From: Oscillospiraceae bacterium
GTDB taxonomy: Bacteria > Bacillota > Clostridia > UBA1212
Direction of reading: 5' to 3'
NCBI GenBank assembly: GCA_015069195.1
Contig: SVJA01000011.1
Location: 1 to 63,696, forward strand
DNA length: 63,696 nt
In this document: piece by piece, positions 3,470 through 10,271 of the stretch
Layout: every line of letters begins with the position of its first letter
Numbering within the stretch: position 1 is the stretch's first letter
Position numbers and translations under genes: made by a program
The notes under the pieces: model-generated
Seen by the model: the letters and a program-made list of their open reading frames with translations, nothing else
The model's database searches: none
Told to the model about the DNA's origin: nothing

Positions 3470-5269
3470 ATGCGTATTTCAGACGAACAAGTTGCTGAGA
3501 TAACAGAAAAAAATGATATCGCCGACGTTATTTCAGATTATGTGAAACTCGATCGAAAGAGCGGCGGCTTTCTCGGTTTATGTCCTTTTCACAAAGAAAA
3601 GACTCCTTCTTTTCATGTAAATGACAGCAAGCAGTTATTTAAGTGTTTCGGTTGCGGAAAAGGAGGTAATGTTGTTCATTTTATAAGACTTGCGGAAGGT
3701 CTCGGTTATGTGGATGCGCTTTTATTCCTTGCAGACCGTGCTGGCGTGACGGTTCAGTACTCAAATGACGATCCGGCACGCGGAAAGAGGGATGAACTTT
3801 GTAAAAATATACTTTCTTTGAATAAGCACACTGCTCGTTTTTTTTATGATTCACTGAAAAAAAGTGATAAGGCACTTGCTTATCTGAAAAACAGAGGACT
3901 TTCGGTTGAGACGGTCAAAAAATTTGGACTGGGATACGCACAAGAGGGCTGGAGTTCGCTTACTGATTATTTTATAGCATCAGGCACCTCGAAGGAACTT
4001 TTGAAAGAAGCCGGCCTTTCATCCAAATCATCTAAATCTGACAGGTATTATGATCGTTTCAGAGACAGACTGATGTTCCCTATATTTGACGTTATGGGAA
4101 ATGTCATTGCGTTCGGTGGCAGACGTATTTCCGATGATGATTCTCAGCCCAAGTACATAAACTCGGCTGAAACTGCCGTGTACACGAAGGGTAAACATCT
4201 TTACGGTCTTAATCTTGCGCGCAAATCGGGCAGCCGAAGGGTTATTATTGTAGAAGGTTATATGGACTGTATTGCACTTCACCAAAAAGGTATTGATTGG
4301 GCGGTCGCATCGCTTGGCACAGCGCTTACTTCTAATCAGGCACGGTTGCTGAAAAAGTACTTTGATGAAGTCATTATTGCGTATGATGCAGATGTTGCAG
4401 GCAAAGATGCCACTATAAGAGGTATGGAGATACTTTCAAATGTAGGCTTCCGTGTAAAAGTCTTTAGACTTAAAGGTGCTAAAGATGCCGATGAGTACTT
4501 GAGGAAGCACAGTTCGGAGGACTTTATAAAACAGCTCGATTCTTCATTGACTTTGATTGAGTACAAAATAAGTCTGGCTGCAGACGAGTGGTCGCTTGAC
4601 AAAAACGACACGCGTGCAGAATTTTTAAAACAGGCTACGATGATACTTGCATCCATATCGAGTGTTGTAGAGTGTGAGATGTATATTACATGGGTTTCAG
4701 AAAAGTACGGTGTGCCGAGAGAACCTCTTAAAGATCAGGTAGAAATCGTAAAAAAAGGCGGAAAATACAATGCTGATAAAACTGTTCTGAGGAGAATACA
4801 GACATCACGTTTTGATACTCTGCCAGAAAAAGATCCGGAGAAAAACTCGCCTGAGTATAAAAAAACAGACAAAAACGAAAAATATTTGTTGGTATTACTT
4901 TCCGAGGACAATGCCTGCCTGAAAAAATACGGTGAAACGGCACTTACATTGCTGACGATCGAAGAAAATAAGTTGCTTTTGAAAGTTTTGTTGAAAAAGC
5001 TTTCGGAAGGTAAAAGAACGGGCAGTGATGTTTTGCTTTCCGATGCAGAACTTGACGATGCACAGATATTGTCCGAAATCATCGGCAAATTCATCATGCC
5101 ACAGAACACGATGCTTGCCTGTCGGGAAATAATGGACAAGCTTACCAAAAAGAATACAACCGACAAAAAGAATGAAATTCTCGCAAAGCTGAAGGAAAAG
5201 AACTTGTCGCCCGCTGAGCGTGATGTATTACTTAAACAACTTAACAAGCTATTAATAAATAACAAATAA
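3470..5269 (+). CDS. dnaG: DNA primase
   Basis: 599 residues, the normal length for bacterial DnaG, which makes RNA primers at the replication fork. The N-terminal zinc ribbon is CPFHKEKTPSFH followed by FKCFGCGKGG. The Toprim domain shows VEGYMD near residue 260 and AYDADVAGKDA, the metal-binding acidic residues of the catalytic core. The C-terminal ~150 residues are lysine-rich and variable, as expected for the helicase-binding domain. Start is preceded by GAGGGG. It forms the classic macromolecular-synthesis pair with rpoD directly downstream (35-base gap). Confidence 0.97.
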   Translation: MRISDEQVAEITEKNDIADVISDYVKLDRKSGGFLGLCPFHKEKTPSFHVNDSKQLFKCFGCGKGGNVVHFIRLAEGLGYVDALLFLADRAGVTVQYSNDDPARGKRDELCKNILSLNKHTARFFYDSLKKSDKALAYLKNRGLSVETVKKFGLGYAQEGWSSLTDYFIASGTSKELLKEAGLSSKSSKSDRYYDRFRDRLMFPIFDVMGNVIAFGGRRISDDDSQPKYINSAETAVYTKGKHLYGLNLARKSGSRRVIIVEGYMDCIALHQKGIDWAVASLGTALTSNQARLLKKYFDEVIIAYDADVAGKDATIRGMEILSNVGFRVKVFRLKGAKDADEYLRKHSSEDFIKQLDSSLTLIEYKISLAADEWSLDKNDTRAEFLKQATMILASISSVVECEMYITWVSEKYGVPREPLKDQVEIVKKGGKYNADKTVLRRIQTSRFDTLPEKDPEKNSPEYKKTDKNEKYLLVLLSEDNACLKKYGETALTLLTIEENKLLLKVLLKKLSEGKRTGSDVLLSDAELDDAQILSEIIGKFIMPQNTMLACREIMDKLTKKNTTDKKNEILAKLKEKNLSPAERDVLLKQLNKLLINNK

Positions 5270-5304
5270 TACAAACGTTTTCATGAAAAAGGAGATTTAC
5301 TTTT

Positions 5305-6702
5305 ATGGCAAGAAAAAAAGCAAACAAAAACGAAGAAGTTATCGACGAGATTATTGAAACTTCAGAATCAGAAACAGAAAATAATGATCTTTTAAATGAT
5401 TATGACGATTTCGAAGAAGACACCAGCATAGACTCTATTGAGGACGTTGATGAGAACGAGCTTGAGGACATTGAAGATATTGAGGATATTTCTTCCTTAG
5501 AGGATACTATTTCCGATATTGACAAAATTCAGTCTTACAGTGAGTATGATGATTCGGAGGAAGATTCCTTGAAAGGCATTCGTATTACAGGTGTTAATGA
5601 CGATGTCGGCAACTTCAGCGAAGATAGTATGTTCAAAGGCAATGACATGATTTCCGAGGTTGAGCGTACTATCATTACGTCATTGATGGAAAAGGGTAAG
5701 AGCAAGGGTGAGCTTACCGTTGAGGAAATAACCGAAGCTTTTGAGGATATGGATGCAGAACCCGAGATTTTTGACAGAATCTATGATTTTGCGGAGCGAT
5801 TCGGAATAAAAGTTATCGGTGATACGGCATTGGTTACAGCAGATGCAGGTGTTGTTGATCTTTCCAGTGAAGTCGGTATTGAGGACCATGTCAGAATGTA
5901 TCTTAAAGAGATAGGTAAAGTACCGCTTCTCAGCGCCGAAGAAGAAGTAGCGCTTGCAAAACAGATAGAAGAAGGCAGTGAAGAAGCAAAACAAAAACTT
6001 AACGAAGCTAACTTGAGACTTGTTGTAAGTATCGCAAAAAGATATGTCGGCAGAGGTATGCAGTTCCTGGATCTTATCCAGGAAGGTAATATGGGTCTCC
6101 TCAAAGCGGTTGATAAGTTTGATTACAGAAAAGGTTACAAATTCAGTACTTATGCTACATGGTGGATAAGACAGGCTATCACACGTGCAATTGCAGACCA
6201 AGCCAGAACTATCAGAATTCCTGTTCATATGGTTGAGACGATAAACAAACTTACACGTGTGCAACGTCAGCTTTGCCAGAAACTCGGAAAAGAACCGACA
6301 CCTGATCAGATTGCAAAAGAGATGGGTATGCCTGTAGAAAAAGTAAGAGAAATCATAAAGATTTCACAGGAACCGGTATCTTTAGAGACTCCTGTAGGCG
6401 AAGAAGAAGACAGCCATATCGGTGACTTTATCCCCGATGAGGATACGCAGACTCCGGCAGAGAGCGCAGCACAGACACTTTTGAGAGAGCATATTATAGA
6501 AGTACTTAATTCGCTTACTCCAAGAGAACAGAGAGTTTTAAGACTCAGATTCGGTCTTGATGACGGACGTCCGAGAACCTTGGAAGAAGTCGGAAAAGAA
6601 TTCAATGTTACAAGAGAACGTATCAGACAGATCGAGGCAAAATCTCTTCGTAAGCTCAGACATCCTACAAGAAGTAAAAAACTCAAGGATTATATTGACT
6701 GA
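5305..6702 (+). CDS. rpoD: Primary sigma factor RpoD/SigA
   Basis: 465 residues. After an acidic, low-complexity N-terminal extension of about 110 residues come region 1.1 ([19 protein letters not shown]), region 1.2/2 ([16 protein letters not shown]), the -10 recognition helix with [13 protein letters not shown], and region 4.2 [18 protein letters not shown] ending in LRHP. These are the hallmarks of a group 1 housekeeping sigma. The Asp/Glu-rich extension is longer than in Bacillus SigA and may act as a DNA mimic like region 1.1; that is inference. Strong AAAGGAG site upstream; same operon as dnaG. Confidence 0.97.
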
Positions 6703-6719
6703 TTCTCAGGAGCGCTAAA

Positions 6720-7979
6720 ATGAATATAATCGAAATAATTGAAAAGAAAAGAGATGGTTATCCGCTCAGTGACGAAGAGATAAAATTCTTCGTCAGGGGA
6801 GTTACCGACGGTAGCATACCTGATTATCAGATATCGTCTCTTTTGATGGCAATTGTTTTAAATTCAATGGATGACAACGAAACTGCGGTTTTGACATACG
6901 AAATGGCACATTCAGGTTATGTACAGGATCTCAGTATGATACCGGGACTTAAAGCTGACAAACACAGCACAGGCGGCGTAGGAGACAAAACTTCACTTGT
7001 CTGTGTACCGGTTGCGGCAGCGTGCGGTGTGCCGGTTGCAAAACTCTCCGGAAGAGGACTCGGTCATACCGGGGGTACGATTGATAAGTTAGAATCCATA
7101 CCGGGTTTTTCTGCTGATGTATCTATGTATGATTTCATAAAAAATGTAAATGAAATTGGTCTGTGTATATCTGCTTCCACTGCAGAACTGGCACCAGCAG
7201 ACAAAAAGCTTTATGCTCTTCGTGATGTTACAGGTACTGTACAAAGTATTCCGCTTATAGCATCCAGCATAATGAGCAAAAAAATTGCTACCGGCAGTGA
7301 TTGTATCATATTGGATGTTAAGGCCGGCTGCGGGGCATTTATGAAAAACGAAGCGGAGGCTAAAGCTCTTGCTGATGCCATGATAAAAGCCGGCAGGGCA
7401 GCCGGCAAAAAGGTGAGTGCCGTTATTTCCGATATGAATGTTCCATTAGGCACAAATATTGGTAATTCTATCGAAGTTATAGAAGCTATCGAAGCGCTGA
7501 AATGTCGCAGTGAAAGTCATTTTTACGATACTTGTAAAAAGTTGGCTTCCGAAATGGTGTCTTTATCACTTGATATTGATATAAAAGATGCTCAGTCCAG
7601 ATGTGAAAAAGCATTAGAATCAGGTGCTGCTTTAGAAAAATTCGAGAAAATGATAAGCCGTCAGGGCGGAAATTCTAAAGTTATAGAAGATTATTCGTTG
7701 TTTAAGCAACCGCGTTACAGTTATGCGTATCGAGCTCCGGTTTCGGGTAAAATATCAAATATAGACGCACTTTTGTGCGGAAAAGCATCCTGCTTGCTCG
7801 GTGCAGGCAGACTTGATAAAGCATCTGTACTTGATTTGTCTGCAGGAATAACTTTGAAGGCATCCAAAGGGGATACGGTTAAGAAAGGTGATATTCTCGC
7901 CTGTCTTTATTCGGATAAGAGTGATATATCGGATACACTTCATTTATTAGAGAATTCATACTCATTTGAGGAGAAATAA
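6720..7979 (+). CDS. pdp: Pyrimidine-nucleoside phosphorylase
   Basis: 419 residues, typical for the thymidine/pyrimidine-nucleoside phosphorylase family, which splits uridine and thymidine with phosphate into base plus (deoxy)ribose-1-phosphate. The phosphate and nucleoside site is clear: ADKHSTGGVGDKTSL near residue 80, followed by AKLSGRGLGHTGGT. The C-terminal part (about 335-410) is the barrel-sandwich hybrid domain. Start has AGGAG eight bases upstream, 17 bases after rpoD. The deoA-type thymidine phosphorylase is the alternative; Gram-positives usually carry the broader Pdp form. Confidence 0.93.
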   Translation: MNIIEIIEKKRDGYPLSDEEIKFFVRGVTDGSIPDYQISSLLMAIVLNSMDDNETAVLTYEMAHSGYVQDLSMIPGLKADKHSTGGVGDKTSLVCVPVAAACGVPVAKLSGRGLGHTGGTIDKLESIPGFSADVSMYDFIKNVNEIGLCISASTAELAPADKKLYALRDVTGTVQSIPLIASSIMSKKIATGSDCIILDVKAGCGAFMKNEAEAKALADAMIKAGRAAGKKVSAVISDMNVPLGTNIGNSIEVIEAIEALKCRSESHFYDTCKKLASEMVSLSLDIDIKDAQSRCEKALESGAALEKFEKMISRQGGNSKVIEDYSLFKQPRYSYAYRAPVSGKISNIDALLCGKASCLLGAGRLDKASVLDLSAGITLKASKGDTVKKGDILACLYSDKSDISDTLHLLENSYSFEEK

Positions 7980-7980
7980 A

Positions 7981-9234
7981 ATGCACTTTAAAAGAAATAA
8001 AAGACTGATTGTCAGAATAATGAGCTTGGTTCTTTGCATATGCACGATCTTGTGTGCTTTTTTATCCACAACCGCATATGGTTTCAATAAAAATACGGCA
8101 CAAAGCATATACAAAAACGCAAAACTAGAAGAACTTGACGTAAAGGCGTATTCGGTAGTTGACTTTTCATCAGGAACATTGACAGTAAAAGGTGAAGCAG
8201 GCTATACACATTTTACTGTAGGAAATCTCGTGAAGACTATGACCTTGTATCTTACATTTGAAGCTGTTGCGGCGAAAACATTGACATTGGATTCAGAAGT
8301 ACGAGTTACAAAAAATGCACAAAATGCAGGAACCGGAAGAGAATCTGTTTTCCTTGATTACGGTAAAAAGGAAGTCATTTCCGTAAAACAAGCTATCGAA
8401 GCTATTTGTGTTGCAAATGCAAATGATGCAGCATATGCGCTATCCGAAACTCTTGCTATGAACGAAGCAGAGTTTGTTACCAAAATGAATGCAAAGGCGA
8501 AAGAATTAGGTCTTAAAGACACTTGTTTTGTTGATTCAACCGGCATAAAAACCATTGAAGACGGTCAATATTCATGTGCAAATGATATTGCGGTTTTGAC
8601 TTGCAATTTGATAAAAAAATTCCCTGAGTCGTTAGAGTACACAAAAGTGACGTACGGACATTTTGAACACACGTCTACCAGACAGCCGAAAACAGAAATG
8701 ATTTCTTCAAATGACCTAATAAGGAAGAAATTCATGGAGAACTGTGACGGATTCCTTACGGGTTATTCAAAAGCAGATGGTTATGCTCAGTGTGCGACAG
8801 CTACCGTGGATGGCAAAAGAGAAGTTGCAGTTGTACTCGGTGCAAAAGATAAAAGTACAAGAGCCGCAACCCTTCGTTTCCTGATGGAATATGCAGCAAA
8901 AAACTATTCTTATGCGTTGATTGCCACGGGCGGTACATTTGTCAGAAAAGTGAATATTAAAGAGGGAAAAAACCTTAAGATAAAAACGGCTATCGCTTCT
9001 GACTTCTATGTAATTATGAATGTCAATGATGTCGAAAACGTAAAGTCCGAAATTATACTTGACGGTGATTTGAAAGCTCCTGTCGAGAAAGGTAAAAAGG
9101 TTGGATATGTTGTATACAAACTTGATGATGTCGAAATCGGCAGGGCAGAGCTTGTTACAGATGAAAATATGGATAGAGCCGGCTGGTTTACCCGTTTAAT
9201 AAGAAAAATTCTTGAATGGCTCGGAATAAATTAA
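7981..9234 (+). CDS. DacF-like S11 family protein lacking all three catalytic motifs
   Basis: 417 residues with an N-terminal signal/anchor (about 10-33) and the fold pattern of a low-molecular-weight penicillin-binding protein (D-Ala-D-Ala carboxypeptidase). The expected SxxK is N82-L-V-K85, SxN is N146-A-N148, and KTG is L259-T-G261, so serine nucleophile, second serine and KTG lysine are all replaced. Alignment is anchored by conserved flanks (KTMT, NDAA, DGFLTGYS, VVLGA). It should therefore not hydrolyse peptide or bind beta-lactams covalently; a structural or regulatory sporulation role is possible. The ATG at 7981 has GAGGAG nine bases upstream. A C-terminal beta domain ends in a basic/aromatic tail. 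Confidence 0.85.
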   Translation: MHFKRNKRLIVRIMSLVLCICTILCAFLSTTAYGFNKNTAQSIYKNAKLEELDVKAYSVVDFSSGTLTVKGEAGYTHFTVGNLVKTMTLYLTFEAVAAKTLTLDSEVRVTKNAQNAGTGRESVFLDYGKKEVISVKQAIEAICVANANDAAYALSETLAMNEAEFVTKMNAKAKELGLKDTCFVDSTGIKTIEDGQYSCANDIAVLTCNLIKKFPESLEYTKVTYGHFEHTSTRQPKTEMISSNDLIRKKFMENCDGFLTGYSKADGYAQCATATVDGKREVAVVLGAKDKSTRAATLRFLMEYAAKNYSYALIATGGTFVRKVNIKEGKNLKIKTAIASDFYVIMNVNDVENVKSEIILDGDLKAPVEKGKKVGYVVYKLDDVEIGRAELVTDENMDRAGWFTRLIRKILEWLGIN

Positions 9235-9309: not shown

Positions 9310-9492
9310 ATGTCAAATAACAGAAGCAAGACAGCTTTTGACCAGATGAAGTACGAGGTTGCAAACGAGCTTGGTATCGATCTTAAGCACGGTTACAACG
9401 GCGATAAGACCTCAAGAGAGAATGGTTCTATAGGCGGTCGTATTACTCAGAAGGTTTTTGAGCAGTATACAGGAAAAGATTACAAGAAATAA
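9310..9492 (+). CDS. ssp: Alpha/beta-type small acid-soluble spore protein
   Basis: 60 residues with the family core: MKYEVANELGI, containing the Gpr protease cleavage region, and NGSIGGRITQKVFE, the DNA-binding second helix. These proteins coat spore DNA and protect it from UV and heat, then are degraded as amino-acid source on germination. I take the ATG at 9310, since the family starts with a short polar leader; a GTG four codons earlier is possible. A SigG-like promoter lies upstream and a hairpin follows. Confidence 0.95.
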   Translation: MSNNRSKTAFDQMKYEVANELGIDLKHGYNGDKTSRENGSIGGRITQKVFEQYTGKDYKK

Positions 9493-9540: not shown

Positions 9541-10212
9541 TTATGTAACGAAAATGAGTCCGAAAAGAGTATTCCACAAAGTGTCAAGCAAACCGATTGT
9601 GATATCTGCCGGTGCAAACAATATCGAACGAAGTGATGTGTAATCAATCAAAAGTATAAATCCTAAAAAGATAAACATACTGTATTTTTCTATTGTATAG
9701 AGTTTTCTGTAAACTTTGTAGGGAAGATAGTTTACGATAAGGTTGTAACCGTCAAGTCCCGGAAGTGGTATAAGGTAAAAGTTCGCAAGTGTTATGCAGA
9801 CACCGGATCCGTATAACAGTATCGTAGCAAGATATTCCAATGCTTCTATATCAAATACATAAATATTCAGATACCAAACAAGCGCATAGAAGAAAGAAAG
9901 TGCAACACCGCCAAACACAAGTCCTGCCGGGCCTGATAAAATCTGTATCGTCATATCACGGCGAATATGTTTGTAATTTCGTGAATTTGTCTGAACAGGT
10001 TTTCCCCAACCGATACCGAGAATCAGTATACACAGAAAACCTATTATATCTATATGTGCTATCGGGTTCATAGTCAACTGACCGTTTTTTTCGGGTGTAT
10101 CATCACCGAGTTTTTTTGCAACAAGAGCCTGTGCATATCCTCTTAAAGAAAAAGCGAATATTATGCCGGGGATTGTAAGCAATTTTGCAATCAAATATGC
10201 TTCGTTAAACAT
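9541..10212 (-). CDS. M50-type membrane protein with lost HExxH motif
   Basis: 223 residues, five or six membrane segments, clearly in the site-2 protease family: LVAKKLGDDTP, QLTMNPIAHIDIIG, GWGKPV, and the C-terminal PLPGLDGYN are all in the expected places. The zinc motif HEFAH of the family is instead R24-G25-Y-A-Q28, although the later aspartate (D154 in LDG) remains. Without the two histidines and glutamate it cannot be a standard zinc protease; a chaperone-like or scaffold role is inference. I start at the ATG at 10212 because GGAGG precedes it; the longer frame would place that Shine-Dalgarno inside the gene. Confidence 0.8.
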   Translation of the reverse strand: MFNEAYLIAKLLTIPGIIFAFSLRGYAQALVAKKLGDDTPEKNGQLTMNPIAHIDIIGFLCILILGIGWGKPVQTNSRNYKHIRRDMTIQILSGPAGLVFGGVALSFFYALVWYLNIYVFDIEALEYLATILLYGSGVCITLANFYLIPLPGLDGYNLIVNYLPYKVYRKLYTIEKYSMFIFLGFILLIDYTSLRSILFAPADITIGLLDTLWNTLFGLIFVT

Positions 10213-10271
10213 AACGACCTCCATGTGAATTTATGAAAGTATCATATCAAAATTTTATGCAAAATGCAAAG

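Follow-up and report, generated by a model that had tools for sequence, protein, structure and literature searches.

In the order to which the host genome belongs, the DacF-type penicillin-binding protein has lost its catalytic serine and its KTG lysine; the loss is order-wide, has a single origin and has been followed by purifying selection. The protein through which this was recognised is encoded at 7981-9234 of the window (the whole stretch of DNA that was analysed, 63,696 nucleotides) and is called pseudo-DacF here. S11 carboxypeptidases are textbook penicillin-binding proteins. What is new is an order-wide pseudo-DacF within this known family, a protein that fails the defining features of the enzyme. 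The reading preferred here, with a probability of roughly 0.55, is that pseudo-DacF is a vertically inherited pseudoenzyme, in which catalysis was lost once in the ancestor of the order, and which has been kept for a non-catalytic binding or scaffolding job in vegetative cells. Order-wide loss combined with intact retention, even in members that do not form spores, suggests that this job is probably a non-enzymatic one in the growing cell wall.

The Window Protein and Its Fold

The features of the gene are as follows.

7968-7973, + strand: GAGGAG, resembling a ribosome-binding site, 7 nt 5' of the ATG (sequence)
7981-9234, + strand: pseudo-DacF, predicted inactive DacF-type S11 protein of 417 aa (open frame; PF00768, E=1e-39; PF07943, E=2e-15; PBP5 fold)
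7981-8085, + strand: N-terminal hydrophobic signal segment, end approximate (sequence; helix 7-31 in the model)
8224-8235, + strand: SxxK site, N82-L-V-K85, nucleophile Ser replaced by Asn (alignment; in the family N 23/26, G 2, Y 1)
8416-8424, + strand: SxN site, N146-A-N148 (alignment; in the family S 17, G 8, N 2)
8668-8679, + strand: derived hairpin, H230-T-S232-T233 (in the inactive clade H 27/27, S 23/25, T 26/26; not conserved in intact relatives)
8755-8763, + strand: KTG site, L259-T-G261, Lys replaced by a hydrophobic residue (alignment; in the family L 11, M 8, I 5, and G, S and C 1 each)
8920-9174, + strand: PBP5_C domain, residues 314-398 (Pfam)
9184-9231, + strand: C-terminal amphipathic helix WFTRLIRKILEWLGIN, predicted PBP5-type membrane anchor (sequence; helix 402-413 in the model)

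The reading frame is open over its 417 codons from the ATG, as the initial annotation had stated. Membership of the homologous family is clear from the match to Peptidase_S11 (PF00768), which scores 136.7 bits against a cut-off of 27.6. The predicted structure adopts the PBP5 fold with a mean pLDDT of 92. In Foldseek, the model matches the S11 domain of 5tr7 with a TM of up to 0.92, and the structures of E. coli PBP5 and PBP6 and P. aeruginosa PBP5 with a TMt of about 0.77-0.83; these three share the fold of pseudo-DacF but, unlike this predicted inactive protein, are active penicillin binders. The top structure match is YxkC-DacA, on which a literature search returned no paper. In its arrangement of S11 domain, PBP5_C domain and C-terminal amphipathic helix, as well as in its fold, pseudo-DacF resembles the DacF proteins of Bacillus and Clostridia (MEROPS S11), and W402 of the C-terminal helix is found in 24 of 26 aligned members of the pseudo-DacF family.

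Loss of the Catalytic Residues

Orthologues were sought in 58 related genomes and each motif was then read. The order is represented by 31 genomes from 12 genera, which yielded 27 orthologues (one of them without coverage of position 82), and the class by 54 DacF relatives from other orders. Motif positions were set by alignment with solved enzymes of the PBP5 type and with clostridial DacFs. This alignment places the sites exactly at the codons proposed earlier, namely NLVK from 8224, NAN from 8416 and LTG from 8755. A single residue is altered in each motif of the window protein, and the flanking family residues K85, N148, T260 and G261 are in place, again as the initial annotation had it.

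Across the order, serine at the SxxK site is found in none of 26 orthologues and lysine at the KTG site in none of 27. The DacF relatives elsewhere in the class have the nucleophile serine in 54 of 54 cases and the KTG lysine in 53 of 54. Since 26 further genomes share the losses of Ser82 and Lys259 (one does not cover position 82), neither chance nor sequencing error accounts for them. The SxN serine, on the other hand, is present in 17 of 27 orthologues. The suggested uniform loss of all three motifs with conservation of the fold thus holds for the window protein, but not for the family: only this protein and a handful of its relatives show the triple loss, and the family-wide losses are those of Ser82 and Lys259. 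One DacF relative outside the order, L215 (G258), has an intact SxxK and QTG in place of KTG, possibly an early or independent step of loss.

In S11 chemistry, the SxxK serine and the KTG lysine are both essential, and the lysine contacts the substrate carboxylate. Judged by this established chemistry, pseudo-DacF is predicted to have neither catalytic activity nor covalent penicillin binding.

Single Origin and Selection

A profile search of 391 genomes of the class separates the family well, with full-length sequences from the order at 496 bits or more, one partial copy at 418, and the next relatives at 350 or less. In a tree from which the motif columns were excluded, the 27 inactive sequences form one clade with an SH-aLRT of 100, implying one change on the tree; the tree was built by a quick method, with SH-aLRT as its sole support measure in place of a bootstrap. 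Pairwise dN/dS is about 0.03-0.12 for pairs with estimable dS, values that are rough because dS is high.

The inactive clade has also acquired residues of its own, including G81 (26/26), N82 (23/26), H230 (27/27) and T233 (26/26), and is without other residues common to all active relatives. New fixed residues together with the loss of residues of the active relatives point to a changed function and not to decay. The fixation of asparagine at the nucleophile position, instead of a scatter of random residues, fits selection for a non-enzymatic role. Such selection had been proposed from the window protein alone, and the proposal gains support from the order-wide fixation in one clade, the low dN/dS and the preserved fold.

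Proposed Role and the State of the Cleft

By its position, the protein descends from the clostridial DacF. D,D-carboxypeptidase activity and penicillin binding would have disappeared a single time, in the ancestor of the order. After secretion, the C-terminal amphipathic helix would hold the protein on the outside of the membrane, where it most likely acts by binding, either docking on cell-wall enzymes or scaffolding them; these could be other PBPs or the S11 paralogue that is still intact. A separate S11 protein with intact SxxK and KTG is encoded in most genomes examined. The inactive M50 membrane protein encoded next door is a candidate partner.

A precedent for such a mode of action is given by the degenerate LytM factors (EnvC, NlpD, ActS, DipM, SpoIIQ), in which a cell-wall peptidase fold has likewise been retained without its catalytic residues (PMC10336132, PMC8360153), and one of which, DipM, binds and stimulates autolysins (PMC10336132). 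The likeness is one of working only, since these factors have the fold of the M23 zinc peptidases and pseudo-DacF that of the S11 serine peptidases. A literature search on inactive S11 proteins or pseudo-PBPs found nothing relevant, and in a search of full texts, a body that leaves most subscription journals outside, none joined pseudoenzyme, peptidoglycan and penicillin-binding.

An alternative is that the inactive cleft has kept its affinity for D-Ala-D-Ala peptides but leaves them uncut, and that pseudo-DacF serves, in the manner of a lectin and with no protein partner, to sense or cap peptidoglycan that is not crosslinked. The state of the cleft is compatible with this, as K85 (25/26), N148 (17/27) and G261 (25/27) are retained and asparagine has become fixed, without drift, where the nucleophile used to be; the cleft thus seems constrained, which leaves room for a sensor. 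However, leucine, methionine or isoleucine in place of the KTG lysine should weaken D-Ala-D-Ala binding, and Thr260 is frequently lost too. A stem-peptide sensor is therefore considered unlikely, and a scaffold or regulator is preferred because the KTG lysine has almost everywhere given way to a hydrophobic residue.

An inactive DacF that a whole order has retained, and that has outlived sporulation, implies a non-catalytic role of the fold in growing cells; ordinary PBP5-type proteins may have such a role too, masked by their activity. The pseudo-DacFs of this order are natural separation-of-function proteins with which non-catalytic roles of S11 proteins can be tested.

Gene Neighbourhood

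Pseudo-DacF follows three genes in the order dnaG-rpoD-pdp-pseudo-DacF, with gaps of 35, 17 and 1 nt.

3470-5269, + strand: dnaG, primase, upstream in the same gene run (Pfam)
5305-6702, + strand: rpoD, sigma-70, upstream in the same gene run (Pfam)
6720-7979, + strand: pdp, pyrimidine-nucleoside phosphorylase, ancestral DacF neighbour, 1 nt upstream (Pfam; synteny)
9541-10224, - strand: pseudo-M50, descendant of an M50 (site-2-protease-like) membrane protein, HExxH replaced by RGYAQ (motif reading; profile comparison)

In the outgroup genomes G054 and G041, the intact gene lies in a pdp-DacF-M50-scpA-scpB locus, and the pdp upstream and M50 downstream of pseudo-DacF match this arrangement, identifying it as the positional orthologue. 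The locus is thus common to pseudo-DacF and the DacF of its class relatives. Unlike DacF, pseudo-DacF has neither the nucleophile serine nor the KTG lysine, occurs in non-sporulating genera as well, and sits in a vegetative gene run.

The arrangement varies within the order. Pseudo-DacF adjoins pdp in genera g1, g7 and g10 and an M50-like gene in families f1, f4, f5 and f6, while in genus g3 it directly follows rpoD. Upstream partners include pdp, rpoD and genes resembling uracil-DNA-glycosylase. No constant operon partner was found, the commonest recurring downstream neighbour being M50. In a promoter scan, promoter-like sites were no commoner than expected by chance.

Is Pseudo-DacF a Sporulation Protein?

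In other Firmicutes, dacF encodes a spore peptidoglycan enzyme under sigma F/G control (PMC3789822, PMC3416734). This descent makes it conceivable that pseudo-DacF serves the spore cortex by controlling, without catalysis, how it is cross-linked in the forespore. An alpha/beta SASP gene at 9310 lies downstream of pseudo-DacF in the window, and the host genome has SpoIVA, SpoIIIAE and a strong CwlD-like match. The initial annotation had tentatively proposed control of the spore cortex from the nearness of the SASP gene, a suggestion that comparison across the order does not support. None of the 14 genomes of g3 (6 genomes) and g10 (8), seven of which are 93-97% complete, has SpoIVA, SpoIIIAE or a strong CwlD match; there, matches to the CwlD profile are limited to weaker amidase relatives. 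Pseudo-DacF is nevertheless retained in 5 of the 6 g3 genomes and 7 of the 8 g10 genomes. Spo0A_C was of little use for judging sporulation, giving matches, though weaker ones, in genera without the other markers.

The SASP gene stands beside pseudo-DacF in only three genomes, and the position behind dnaG-rpoD-pdp also speaks against the forespore. No sigma F/G-like site was seen in the region 5201-7985, which was scanned with just two simple patterns. A spore-cortex function is contradicted as the sole role of the protein and is, on the whole, improbable. Retention without sporulation genes, the lack of conservation of the SASP neighbour and the run of housekeeping genes suggest instead that the role is at least partly vegetative. 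Given the sigma F/G-controlled spore gene of other Firmicutes, this lineage appears to have shifted a spore gene to vegetative use.

Residual Activity or Decay

Could pseudo-DacF still be an enzyme that relies on a different nucleophile or carries out a different reaction in this cleft? The SxxK lysine (Lys85) and, in many copies, the SxN serine are present, and in some other pseudoenzymes the catalytic residues have migrated (PMC10211241). A scan of the whole window protein for alternative motifs, however, revealed no [KHR][TS]G, and its only S..K is S42-IYK, which occurs in 1 of 27 orthologues; a replacement SxxK or KTG elsewhere in the protein, which would have counted against the proposed loss, was thus not found. 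In the family alignment, none of the invariant columns holds a serine, cysteine or threonine. Retained enzymatic activity is accordingly very improbable.

The reading of pseudo-DacF as a decaying passenger of its operon, for which the missing catalytic residues and an internal stop in the G017 copy might be cited, deserves next to no credence, being contradicted by the absence of internal stops from 26 of 27 copies, dN/dS of 0.03-0.12, differing gene contexts and newly fixed residues. The exception (L014, G017:C51:491-1714) has an internal TAA, either an assembly error or a true pseudogene.

The Neighbouring Inactive M50 Protein

The pseudo-M50 gene lies downstream of pseudo-DacF on the opposite strand and is convergent to it. 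With Pfam, its M50 match falls below the cut-off; a profile comparison with five intact M50 homologues gives a probability of 100% (E=1e-52). HExxH is replaced in 24 of 24 copies of this M50 descendant in the order (the window copy and copies among L280-L309) by RGYAQ, KGFGQ, KGWAK, RGFFQ and similar sequences, and the asparagine of the NxxP..DG motif is likewise replaced. The outgroup M50 copies that were read all have HExxH. The dN/dS of the inactive M50 is 0.12-0.19 for computable pairs. iRhoms, the rhomboid pseudoproteases, show that a family of intramembrane proteases can be retained after catalysis has gone (PMC3149277), but the parallel is only an analogy, as they belong to another protease family and another domain of life.

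Of the genomes of the order, 24 carry both genes and 3 only pseudo-DacF, while pseudo-M50 never occurs by itself and 4 genomes (76-88% complete) have neither; Fisher's test gives p=0.001, a value that ignores shared ancestry and assembly gaps. In family f2, the two genes are not adjacent and both are retained, and the inactive M50 lies beside scpA/scpB in several genomes. In another family, L368 (G272) and L371 (G302) are M50 proteins with QGYAR and QGYAK in place of HExxH and without the aspartate of DG, and no S11 gene lies within about 9 kb; this is probably a separate loss. An inactive M50 is thus possible without an inactive DacF nearby, which weakens a strict pairing in which the former needs the latter next to it.

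A tentative and somewhat doubtful extension of the scaffold reading is that catalysis disappeared from DacF and the neighbouring M50 alike when the order arose, and that the two survive together as a non-enzymatic pair, a pseudo-PBP and a pseudoprotease, forming a vegetative module of cell-wall control. A second degenerate S11 family would fit the same trend.

Other S11 Proteins of the Order

In g3, the only other S11 proteins found (L141, L271-L275) have intact SxxK and KTG, with SFG or SFA at the SxN site. A canonical S11 carboxypeptidase may thus be missing from the g3 genomes.

The second degenerate S11 family has a C-terminal membrane segment and is represented by G000:C21:22944-24284 on the - strand (L172:4371-5711), L247, L249-L260, L262-L265 and L276. 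Its SxxK region resembles DCSLLARLMTC, its SxN region resembles LCNADNAAR, and KTG is absent. Most of the order's genomes carry the family, which forms its own clade in the tree; it was not found in g3. Its relatives in other orders, L267, L268 and L269 (G036, G044 and G054), have the broken or shifted motifs HSSLANRIM, HISIANKIM and PPSIMCKLM, which suggests that degeneration of this second family may extend further across the class.
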